From Streptomyces sp. NBC_01224 (GTDB taxonomy: Bacteria; Actinomycetota; Actinomycetes; Streptomycetales; Streptomycetaceae), in the NCBI RefSeq assembly GCF_036002945.1, contig NZ_CP108529.1, positions 2,604,001 through 2,668,000 on the forward strand: a DNA stretch of 64,000 nt, written 5' to 3'. Each line of letters opens with the position of its first letter. Position 1 is the stretch's first letter. Below, one piece after another: positions 3,726 through 56,144 of the stretch. Below the pieces are notes generated by a model. It did no database searches, was not told the DNA's origin, and was given only the letters and a program-made list of their open reading frames with translations. The position numbers were made by a program, and so were the translations under genes.

Positions 3726-4274
3726 ATGGAACACATGCACGATCTCCTGGCTCGGACCGAGCGCGGCGAGAAGGTGAAGTACCTGCACTTCTGGGGGCAT
3801 CGCCCGCGGCCCGACGGCAGCATCGGTGCGAGCTGTCTCAGCCAGTGGTGGCCGGCCCCCTTCACGGTCGACGGGGTGACGTACGCGTCGGCCGAGCACT
3901 GGATGATGGCCGCCAAGGCGCGGCTCTTTGGCGACACGGAGTCGGAGGCCAAGGCGGTGGAGGCGAAGAGCCCGGCCCAGGCGAAGAAGGTGGGCCGGCT
4001 GGTCCGCGGTTTCGACGAGGCGGTGTGGGAGCGCGAGCGGTACGCACTGGTGGTGGCCGGCAGCGTCCACAAGTTCGCCCAGGCCCCGGAGCTGCGGGAG
4101 TTCCTGCTGAACACCGGGGACCGGGTGCTGGTCGAGGCGAGCCCGATGGACCGGATCTGGGGCATCGGGCTGGCGGCGGACGACCCGCGGGCGGAGAATC
4201 CGGCGACCTGGCGGGGGCTGAATCTGCTGGGGTTCGCGCTGATGGACGCGCGGGCGGAGCTGCGCGCTCCATGA
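3726..4274 (+). CDS. NADAR family protein (YbiA/DUF1768-like)
   Basis: A NADAR-family protein of 182 aa. Members act on ADP-ribose-type compounds; E. coli YbiA cleaves N-glycosidic bonds of early riboflavin intermediates. Family blocks are visible: LHFWGHRP near residue 19, SQWWPAPFTVDG, then ASAEHWMMAAKARLFGD. The C-terminal part contains WGIGLAADDPRAENPATWRGLNLLGFALM. The ATG at 3726 is used; in-frame ATGs at 3708 and 3735 are possible and no strong ribosome binding site decides. It diverges from the aldehyde dehydrogenase and converges on the DUF4190 gene. No DarT-type ADP-ribosyltransferase is next to it, so a housekeeping role is more likely than a toxin-antitoxin one. Confidence 0.85.
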   Translation: MEHMHDLLARTERGEKVKYLHFWGHRPRPDGSIGASCLSQWWPAPFTVDGVTYASAEHWMMAAKARLFGDTESEAKAVEAKSPAQAKKVGRLVRGFDEAVWERERYALVVAGSVHKFAQAPELREFLLNTGDRVLVEASPMDRIWGIGLAADDPRAENPATWRGLNLLGFALMDARAELRAP

Positions 4275-53575: not shown

Positions 53576-54739
53576 GTGTTTCTCGACACCGTGCTCACCC
53601 GCAACCCCGAGCTCGTCGACGCCGCGGCCACCCTTCACCGGCGCGGCGAGATCCCGCCCGACACCTACGTGATGGACCTCGACGGCGTCGAGGCCAACGC
53701 CGCGCTGCTGGCGGCCGAGGCCGAACGGGTCGGCATCGGCCTCTGGTTCGTCGTCAAACAGCTGGGCCGCAACCCCGAGCTGATCAGGGCCGTCGCCCGG
53801 CACATCCCCAGGTTCGCCGCCATCGACCCACCCGAGGCCCGCACCCTGCACGCCGCGGGCGCACAGGCCGGCAACCTCGGCCACCTGGTCCAGATCCCCC
53901 GCCGCGCACTGCCCGAAATGCTGGCCTGGCGCCCCGAGACCGTCACCGTGTTCGACCTCGCCAACGCCCGGGCCGTGTCCGAGACCGCCCAGCGGCTCGG
54001 CTTCGTCCAGGACGTTCTCGTACGCCTCGAAGGCGCCGAGGGCGCCGTCTACCCCGGCCAGGAGGGCGGCGTCCCGCTCGGCCGCCTCGACTCGTTCGCC
54101 GAAGCGGCCGAGCAACTGCCCGGCATCCGGATCGCGGGCGTCACCGCTTTCCCCTGCGTCCTGTGCGACCCGGCAACCGGCGTCCCCCGCGCCACCCCCA
54201 ACTTCGCGCTCGCCCTCAAGGCCCGAGAAGTCCTGGCCGCCCGGGGACACGAACACCTGAAGCTGAGCGCCCCCAGCGCCACCTCGATGGCGTCCCTCCC
54301 GCTGCTCGCCGAACTCGGCGCCACCCACGGCGAACCCGGCCACGCCCTCACCGGCACCACCCCGCTGCACGCCCTCGACCCGCAGCAGCCCGAGAAGCCC
54401 GCGTACGTGTACGTCAGCGAGATCGCCCATACCCTCGACGACGGCCGCCCGGCGATCCGCGGCGGCGGCTTCTACGCCCGGTCCCACATCCGCAGCGCTC
54501 TGCTGCCGCGCACCGGCGCACGCCTCGGCGTACAGGACGCACCCGCCGAGAACATCGACTACTACCGGCTGCTCGACGCTCCCGCCGACGGCCAGGACGT
54601 CCGGCTCGGCGACACCGCACTGCTCGCCTTCCGTACCCAGATCTTCGTCACGCGCTCGACCGTTGCCGTCGTCTCCGGACTCGCCTCCGGCACACCCCGG
54701 CTGAGCGGGCTGTACGACGCCCAGGGCCGGGCCCTGTAA
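53576..54739 (+). CDS. yhfX: YhfX family PLP-dependent (alanine-racemase-like) enzyme
   Basis: A 387-aa fold-type-III PLP enzyme, a TIM barrel plus C-terminal beta domain like alanine racemase. The N-terminal part has PPDTYVMDLDGVEANAALLAAEAERVGIGLWFVVKQLGRNPELI, in which the Lys of VVKQ is the probable Schiff-base residue. Later SAPSATSMASLPLLAELGATHGEPGHALTGTTPLHA and IRGGGFYARSHIRSALL follow. The GTG start at 53576 lies 2 bases after yhfS. Length agrees with E. coli YhfX. A racemase or epimerase role is likely; the substrate is unknown. The stop codon TAA is the edge of an inserted inverted-repeat element. Confidence 0.87.
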   Translation: MFLDTVLTRNPELVDAAATLHRRGEIPPDTYVMDLDGVEANAALLAAEAERVGIGLWFVVKQLGRNPELIRAVARHIPRFAAIDPPEARTLHAAGAQAGNLGHLVQIPRRALPEMLAWRPETVTVFDLANARAVSETAQRLGFVQDVLVRLEGAEGAVYPGQEGGVPLGRLDSFAEAAEQLPGIRIAGVTAFPCVLCDPATGVPRATPNFALALKAREVLAARGHEHLKLSAPSATSMASLPLLAELGATHGEPGHALTGTTPLHALDPQQPEKPAYVYVSEIAHTLDDGRPAIRGGGFYARSHIRSALLPRTGARLGVQDAPAENIDYYRLLDAPADGQDVRLGDTALLAFRTQIFVTRSTVAVVSGLASGTPRLSGLYDAQGRAL

Positions 54740-54876
54740 CGACCTCGCCCACGATTGGCAGTGGGAGAGGGAGCGGCGTCCGGGACCTCCGCCTCGGCGT
54801 TGTCGTCAGTCGCCGACGCCGGAGGCGGAGGTCCCGGACACCGCGACGCCGCTGACAATCGCGGGCGAGGTCGTAA
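54737..54876. mobile_element. MITE-like terminal-inverted-repeat element between yhfX and yhfW
   Basis: The ends CGACCTCGCCCACGATTG and CAATCGCGGGCGAGGTCG are complementary except for one base. They bound a 134-base element (54740-54873). Further inner arms pair (GCGGCGTC with GACGCCGC, and CGGGACCTCCGCCT with AGGCGGAGGTCCCG), so nearly the whole element folds into one hairpin. It is flanked by the direct repeat TAA on both sides (54737-54739 and 54874-54876), like a 3-bp target duplication; the left copy is the yhfX stop codon. It has no gene. A transcription-attenuating hairpin is an alternative reading. Confidence 0.6.
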
Positions 54877-54902
54877 GGCCGACCCCTGAATAGGAGGCAC
54901 CC

Positions 54903-56144
54903 ATGGCCAAGACCGTCATCGTCGTCATCGACGGATTCGGCATCGGCGCCATGCCCGACGCGGGCACCCTGCGCCCCGGCGATCTCACCGCCGACACCTG
55001 CGGACACGTCCTCGACCACTGCCGCGTGGCCCTCGGCCGGCCGCTGCGCCTGCCCGTGCTCGGCGCGCTGGGTCTCGGCCTGGTCCACCCGCACCAGGAC
55101 CTCGCCCGCCGTACCCATCTGCCCGTCGCCGCGGGCCGCGCCGCGCTCGGCTATCCCGGCGCCGACACCTTCGCGGGCCACCAGACGATGATGGGCGCCG
55201 ACTTCAGCCGGGTCACCGTGGCCCGGCTCGCCGACCATCTGGCCGCGGTGGCCGCCGCCCTCGAAGCGGCCGGCCACCGCGTCGAACCGCTGGACGGCAA
55301 GCCGCTCCTCGTCGTCGACGGCACGGTCCTCGTCCACGACAACCTGGAGGCCGACCCCGGGATCAACTGGAACGCCTCCGGCCGCCTGGACGACCTGTCC
55401 TTCGACGGCCCCGGCGGAATCCTCTCCGTCGCCCGTACCGTCCGCGCGGTCGCGCCCGTCGCCCGGGTCATCGCGGTCGGCGGCCACGCGGACGGCCCGC
55501 TGAGGCAGTTCGTGCGCCCCGGCGATGCGGGAACCGTCGGACTCGACACCCCCGCCACCGGCTTCTACCGCAACGGCGGCCTGGAAGTTCAGCACCTGGG
55601 CGCCGAGCTCGACCACACCCGCCAGCTCCCCGGTCTGGCCGCCCGCGCGGGCATCCCGGTCACCCTGGTGGGGAAGGCCGCCGACATCCTGGCCTGCGAG
55701 GCGGCGCGGCGACACCCGGCCGTGAAGACGGCCGACGTGCTCTCCCACACCCTCGAAGCGGTACGCGCCCCCGGCGACGCGCTCGTCGTCGCCAACGTCC
55801 AGGAGACCGACCTGGCGGGGCACCAGCAGGACACCGAGTGCTACGGACACCTCCTGGAGCAGGTGGACTCCGGGCTCGCCGGGCTCGTGGCGCTGCTCGA
55901 CAGCCCCGGCGACCGGCTGATCGTCACCGGCGACCACGGGAACGACCCCACGATCGGGCACGCCTACCACACCCGCGAGTACGTGCCGGTGCTGATCCAC
56001 CGGCCCGGCACGGACGGCGTGGAACTGCTGCCGGACGCGGACAGCCTCGCGGATGTGGGCGCCACCGCGGCCGCATCGCTGTCCCTGGACCCGGCGGGGC
56101 TGGCCAACGGCACGACGCTGCGGCCGGGACGGCACGCAGCATAG
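54903..56144 (+). CDS. yhfW: YhfW family phosphopentomutase-like enzyme
   Basis: A 413-aa metalloenzyme of the alkaline phosphatase superfamily. It has AKTVIVVIDGFGIGAMPDAG (metal Asp), DTFAGHQTMMGAD (nucleophile Thr region), VGKAADILACE and the metal cluster VTGDHGNDPTIGHAYHTREYVPVLIH. In phosphopentomutase (deoB) the last motif is usually GTDHTRE; here it is GHAYHTRE, so one ligand position differs and the reaction may not be pentose phosphate isomerisation. ATG 54903 follows TAGGAGG. It is the last gene of the yhf operon and converges on ffh. Confidence 0.85.
   Translation: MAKTVIVVIDGFGIGAMPDAGTLRPGDLTADTCGHVLDHCRVALGRPLRLPVLGALGLGLVHPHQDLARRTHLPVAAGRAALGYPGADTFAGHQTMMGADFSRVTVARLADHLAAVAAALEAAGHRVEPLDGKPLLVVDGTVLVHDNLEADPGINWNASGRLDDLSFDGPGGILSVARTVRAVAPVARVIAVGGHADGPLRQFVRPGDAGTVGLDTPATGFYRNGGLEVQHLGAELDHTRQLPGLAARAGIPVTLVGKAADILACEAARRHPAVKTADVLSHTLEAVRAPGDALVVANVQETDLAGHQQDTECYGHLLEQVDSGLAGLVALLDSPGDRLIVTGDHGNDPTIGHAYHTREYVPVLIHRPGTDGVELLPDADSLADVGATAAASLSLDPAGLANGTTLRPGRHAA

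Follow-up and report, generated by a model that had tools for sequence, protein, structure and literature searches.

The 64,000-nucleotide stretch of Streptomyces sp. NBC_01224 DNA analysed here (the window) carries, around the element described below, genes whose products match the YhfT, PTE (php), YhfS-like_C, YhfX-like_C and PRK12383 phosphopentomutase family models, and which were assigned as yhfT, php, yhfS, yhfX and yhfW, respectively. On the forward strand, yhfX (positions 53576–54739; composition-based gene call, YhfX-like_C and Ala_racemase_N models) is followed by yhfW (54903–56144; open reading frame list, PRK12383 model above cut-off), which retains an AGGAGG motif (54892–54897) upstream of its start codon. 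A reading of this locus from the sequence alone (the sequence-only reading) had described 2-base gaps in the php–yhfS–yhfX part of the operon, and such gaps indeed separate php from yhfS (open reading frame list) and yhfS from yhfX (composition-based gene call). The gap between yhfX and yhfW is 163 bases long; without a 134-bp element and one flanking TAA triplet (137 bases together), it would be 26 bases long, as had been estimated.

The element (54740–54873, forward strand) was assigned, on the basis of its ends, its fold and its copies in the same genome, as a rearranged copy of a MITE with ends that we call class A. As the sequence-only reading had stated, it is flanked by TAA on both sides, at 54737–54739 and 54874–54876, and the left TAA is at the same time the stop codon of yhfX. 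Sequence, empty sites and a survey of flanks identify these two triplets as a target duplication. The 18-bp terminal inverted repeats, located at 54740–54757 (CGACCTCGCCCACGATTG, forward strand) and 54856–54873 (reverse strand), are complementary with one mismatch, and the repeat extends to 26 nt at 88% identity. The internal self-complementarity that had been noticed corresponds to a second, nested inverted repeat of 23 nt at 96% identity, the left and right arms of which occupy 54773–54795 and 54822–54844 of the forward strand. The predicted DNA folding energy of a 181-nt stretch with the element is -73.4 kcal/mol, as compared with -42.3 kcal/mol (sd 3.5) for shuffled sequences (z -8.9; none of 200 shuffles equal), while the element alone folds as RNA at -110.8 kcal/mol (z -12.1 versus shuffles).

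A search of the same genome (10 Mb) for further copies with these ends, which the sequence-only reading had proposed, revealed 22 complete copies with class A ends, in addition to fragments. The length between the flanking triplets is 160 bp in 16 of them, 109 bp in three, and 159, 154 and 134 bp in one each. Sixteen of the 22 copies have identical flanking triplets, which are TAA or TTA in all but one of these; the triplets of the remaining six are unequal, which we read as decay. In genomes of such composition TAA and TTA are rare within genes. Stop codons may thus serve as natural, harmless targets. Six of the 22 copies (L001, L006, L015, L018, L019 and L021) have a flanking triplet that doubles as the stop codon of an adjacent gene, with genes called by composition. 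Exact TAACGACCTCGCCC sites number 18 in this genome. Two of these lie within derivatives reduced to about 40 and 37 bp (L062:4259-4298 and L063:4471-4507), which comprise barely more than both ends and are both located at TAA. The three 109-bp copies (L012, L017 and L019) lack the conserved core described below as a result of a deletion between GGCGGAGG repeats; we did not take them as proof that movement needs no core, since this deletion may have recurred in place.

An orphan end at C1:1684383 of the same genome led to plasmid-borne insertion sequences (IS) of Streptomyces, L298 and L299, of about 1.1 kb, with the ends CGACCTCACCCGCGATTG, from which the ends of the window element differ at 2 of 18 positions on the left and 1 of 18 on the right. 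The 325-aa frame of L298 matches PF13359 (DDE_Tnp_4; 5.6e-16) and PF13613 (HTH_Tnp_4; 2.5e-11), while in L299 the transposase gene is annotated as a shorter frame and a separate small frame. Both flanks of L299 are TTA; those of L298 are unequal (TAA on the left, TTA on the right), and the right end of L298 contains further differences. The window element thus resembles the IS5-type IS (transpos_IS5_4; DDE_Tnp_4 with HTH_Tnp_4) in its ends (1–2 differences in 18) and its 3-bp TNA-type flanks, but differs from them in the lack of a transposase and of a common interior, and the transposase of the partner IS scores only 35 bits with the nearest IS5 model, transpos_IS5_4, against a cut-off of 140. 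The same IS is present in the genome of the window strain in two pieces (L267), one of 1013 bp with 91% identity and one of 114 bp with 89%. The region L267:4384-10376 (C1:1684383-1690375) represents a class A-ended IS interrupted by about 4.9 kb of foreign DNA, with frames that we name IS4-like or otherwise transposase-like. This insert truncates the 3' part of the transposase gene of the interrupted IS, and no intact autonomous copy was found in this genome. The IS4-like gene within the insert was rejected as a partner because only two class A-like ends occur in 19 kb, neither of them adjoining it. In this genome, the surroundings of all 19 DDE_Tnp_4 matches and of 30 among the 87 DDE_Tnp_1 matches contained one degenerate right end (L225), but no pair of class A ends around a gene.

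The ends nearly common to the MITE and the IS might indicate that the MITE arose by a simple internal deletion of its IS, and IS elements are named as the main source of bacterial MITEs in sections of a review (PMC10969869). We consider this origin unlikely, since past about 21 bp of the ends the MITE has only short, scattered matches to L298 and L299, judged to be probable chance matches in GC-rich DNA, and since the interior of its ordinary copies is common to elements with other ends. The element also shares with REP/REPIN sequences, moved by RAYT (Y1/HUH) transposases, its short, palindromic, extragenic and multi-copy character. Its 18-bp terminal inverted repeats, its 3-bp flanking duplications (identical flanks in 16 of 22 copies), its ends nearly identical to those of a DDE-type IS and the 20–40 bp span ascribed to REPs in parts of PMC3733652 make such an assignment very improbable.

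Further evidence for insertion comes from the corresponding sites of related genomes. A comparison of the yhfX–yhfW junction, which had also been suggested, was based on a search of 100 genomes, 10 of which matched; one of these was the window genome itself and another (G028) matched on the yhfW side alone. The element is missing from the junction in all eight congeners that cover it. In two of them (L303 and L304) the junction reads GCCCTG-TAA-GGA, with one TAA that is the stop codon of yhfX, as compared with GCCCTG-TAA-[134 bp]-TAA-GG in the window. The sequence-only reading had regarded conservation of the hairpin in other actinobacterial yhf loci as favouring a regulatory structure; in the eight congeners that we looked at, no such conservation was found. 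A native attenuator or terminator of the yhf operon, formed with no insertion, would fit a very stable hairpin between two operon genes, but it is highly improbable in view of these eight unoccupied junctions, of the 21 further complete copies elsewhere in the genome and of consensus scans of 54600–55000, which say little but gave neither terminator-like nor sigma-70 promoter-like sites. An element with the core and ends of class B provides a further case of insertion: it is present in one Streptomyces atratus plasmid, while another plasmid has a clean single TAA at this site with flanks of 99.9% identity, so that the element must have been recently inserted (or precisely lost). A second polymorphic plasmid site (L372 versus L401) was left uncounted, as its unoccupied form is not clean.

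Taken together, the ends, the duplication, the empty sites, the copy number, the matching plasmid-borne IS and its interrupted relative in the same genome lead us to conclude with very high confidence that the window element is a non-autonomous IS5-type MITE, with ends nearly those of a DDE_Tnp_4/HTH_Tnp_4 IS, inserted at the stop codon of yhfX. The miniature transposon considered in the sequence-only reading is therefore well supported. We infer that the element was probably mobilised by a transposase of L298 type. Acting in trans, this enzyme would have placed a copy into a target of TNA type, in this case the TAA stop codon. The duplication of three bases would retain the stop codon of yhfX, and yhfW would be displaced by 137 bases. 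In the transcript, the hairpin, predicted at -110.8 kcal/mol, may reduce or uncouple the expression of yhfW.

In its size (within 50–500 bp), terminal inverted repeats, flanking direct repeats and hairpin-forming transcript, the element agrees with bacterial MITEs as characterised in sections of review PMC10969869. According to the same sections MITEs are typically AT-rich, whereas the Streptomyces elements are GC-rich and most of their copies keep a folded core common to different end types; in the main text of this review the words Streptomyces and actino are absent.

The window copy itself is rearranged. Its direct matches to an ordinary copy (L003) comprise 54739–54784 (with one mismatch) and 54816–54876, while the region 54778–54819 matches the reverse complement of L003 in two exact runs, and the middle of the element (54785–54815, reverse strand) is present in L003 as the reverse complement only. 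The left part of the conserved core is lost. The pattern of matches is as predicted by fold-back templating, and suggests that a reverse-complement copy of the right half replaced the left inner half, either before or after the insertion, which would have removed the left part of the core that the sister copies carry.

In undamaged copies, the core consists of AAGGCGGAGGAGGGAG, a hairpin with a GGA loop, and GACGACAACGC. It is found repeatedly across Streptomyces and, in divergent form, in other actinobacterial families, within elements that have many different ends. When an ordinary 166-bp copy was used as a query, matches at E<=1e-6 (best two candidates per genome) were obtained in at least 169 of the 295 genomes searched in the genus, that of the window strain among them, and most of the matches listed span the middle alone. 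The elements around the core start differently, many with CTAGGGCCTGTC, others with GACCGACCGGCAAATGG, GAGCCTGTCGGGTGACC and more, and clear complementary ends were found in 145 of the 156 elements examined. A loose automatic grouping of these ends gave 16 groups, which is not an exact count, as it splits class A. The genome of the window strain alone contains core-bearing elements of at least three end classes (A, B and C). Ends like those of the CTAGGGCC class (differing at 3–5 of 20 positions) occur in this genome on L252 and L259, the first frame of which matches a different IS5 model above cut-off (DUF4096, transpos_IS5_3); with an IS5 model cut-off of 110, scores of 135 and 142 bits were obtained for IS with ends like class E. 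The various ends resemble those of at least two IS5 types.

A set of at least 119 stretches (genome_contigs) was picked by the exact core pattern and therefore overstates the conservation of the core; the loci of the genus search with the 166-bp query and of the phylum scan with a covariance model were not picked in this way. Among 408 proteins encoded within 2 kb of the core at the genome_contigs loci, the largest groups are represented at 10, 6 and 5 loci; no transposase is evident among the 12 groups listed (judged from one member per group), and no protein partner of the core was found in genes within 2 kb. A whole copy had no match in phage records, and the core patterns had no exact match in viral contigs.

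Several observations suggest that the core is maintained as a fold of one strand. In the consensus fold of 24 elements of diverse ends, 48 of 58 pairs show at least one compensatory change; much of this compensation is expected of any inverted repeat, and the core hairpin is more telling. Its stem varies (CGACGC/GCGTCG, CAACGC/GCGTTG, GATGGC/GCCATC, ATAGC/GCTAT, CGGGCC/GGCCCG and ATGCCT/AGGCAT), while its loop is GGA in 38 of 44 aligned rows, the others being GTA (2), AGC, GGG and AGA, with the hairpin of L345 unaligned. All eight pairs of this hairpin have changes on both sides in the alignment of 44 sequences. In the whole of this alignment, 91.9% of cells pair, while shuffles reach 66.1% (sd 0.9). 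The covariation score is 0.625; shuffles give 0.176 (sd 0.012) and slid alignments no more than 0.138. These figures lean toward structure, however, as related sequences were used and their alignment had been fitted to it. The covariance model gave matches, at E<=1e-4 and with the best 20 candidates per genome scored, in at least 12 of 198 genomes of the phylum (8 of 147 genera). Five of these belong to the genus of the window strain (own genome included) and six to three other families (f30, f37 and f38). The remaining match (L351) resembles coding sequence and was treated as probably false.

The distribution of mismatches between the arms of the elements points in the same direction. We scored G-T and A-C mismatches alike in 75 arm pairs, obtained from 91 clusters of 160 elements after 16 had been dropped due to poor arm alignment. 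The ratio of G-T to A-C mismatches is 212:4 within 15 nt of the core, 34:11 in the middle and 42:30 near the ends, these counts being not independent as the elements are related. Over the 30 pairs of the model, 16 positions contain G-T and 11 contain A-C (164 versus 23 cells), and the contrast is thus weaker by position than by cell. Since G-T and A-C should be equally frequent if a DNA palindrome decayed symmetrically, the G-T excess near the core argues for selection on a single-stranded fold. This pattern suggests that the fold of the core strand is under selection, most simply as RNA and less likely as single-stranded DNA, and that the ends have a symmetric DNA role. A search of Rfam with eight loci at E<=1 gave four matches, all far under the gathering scores (three to microRNA models, from the rearranged window copy, and one to Actino-pnp, off the core in L073), and ten loci with divergent members gave none.

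The core lies just behind gene ends on either strand, with medians of 12–25 nt to 3' ends and 91.5–140 nt to 5' ends (approximate bounds). When genes were called by composition and element bounds were fixed (n=145), no sense bias versus the flanking genes was found: 32 cores were sense and 43 antisense in tandem contexts, 41 lay between convergent and 28 between divergent genes, and one was inside a gene. A cis-acting 3'-UTR role in one orientation is therefore unsupported. In the genome of the window strain, 28 of 41 core places (49 matches less 8 second pieces) are opposed to the replication fork and 13 have the same direction (p 0.028), a weak bias calculated with an origin whose position, near 4.6 Mb, was guessed from clustered DnaA boxes.

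Bacterial MITEs are usually seen as decayed insertion sequences. The yhf insertion is an ordinary, well-supported MITE, the twist being a TAA stop codon that served as the landing site and outlasted the insertion. The core-bearing family is unusual in that its fold is retained while stems and transposon ends change. We see about an even chance that the window element represents a damaged copy from a widespread superfamily of actinobacterial MITEs. In such a superfamily, replication would really concern a one-strand-folded module, and the repeatedly exchanged ends would be interchangeable vehicles for different IS5-type transposases. Such a module would most simply be a structured RNA, predicted to comprise a long stem, a CAAGGCG/CAACGC internal loop and a variable stem closed by the GGA loop. 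The window element itself is best classed as an ordinary IS5-type MITE; its family merits attention because it may carry a new conserved folded module. If the core is an RNA, Streptomyces and relatives would possess a common structured RNA with no Rfam match in the loci searched, and the question would arise of why a mobile element needs it. Among the open PMC papers listed in literature searches, no title or abstract start describes this core-bearing MITE family, and four core strings do not occur in the open PMC texts searched.

Variants of the core were also observed. At several loci of the genome of the window strain (L328–L331, L333, L334 and L338), other sequence extends the core hairpin or the right half or takes its place. 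In several cases this sequence has the form GGGGTCCCCC..CTTGGGGGAG or GGGGTCCCCC..TATGGGGGAG and seems to be a second repeat that is nested within the core. At L326 (C1:5067390 and 5067622 of the same genome), two core places lie side by side at a distance of about 230 bp, the first being a class C element, and two core elements 2 kb apart (L136:1823-1926 and 3827-3930) are present in a contig of a metagenome-assembled Nocardioides. Actinobacteria of another family, G349 (L347, L355, L363 and L367) and G400 (L348, L354, L359 and L364), contain divergent core elements in multiple copies, the ends of which mostly start with CTAGTGCTCC.
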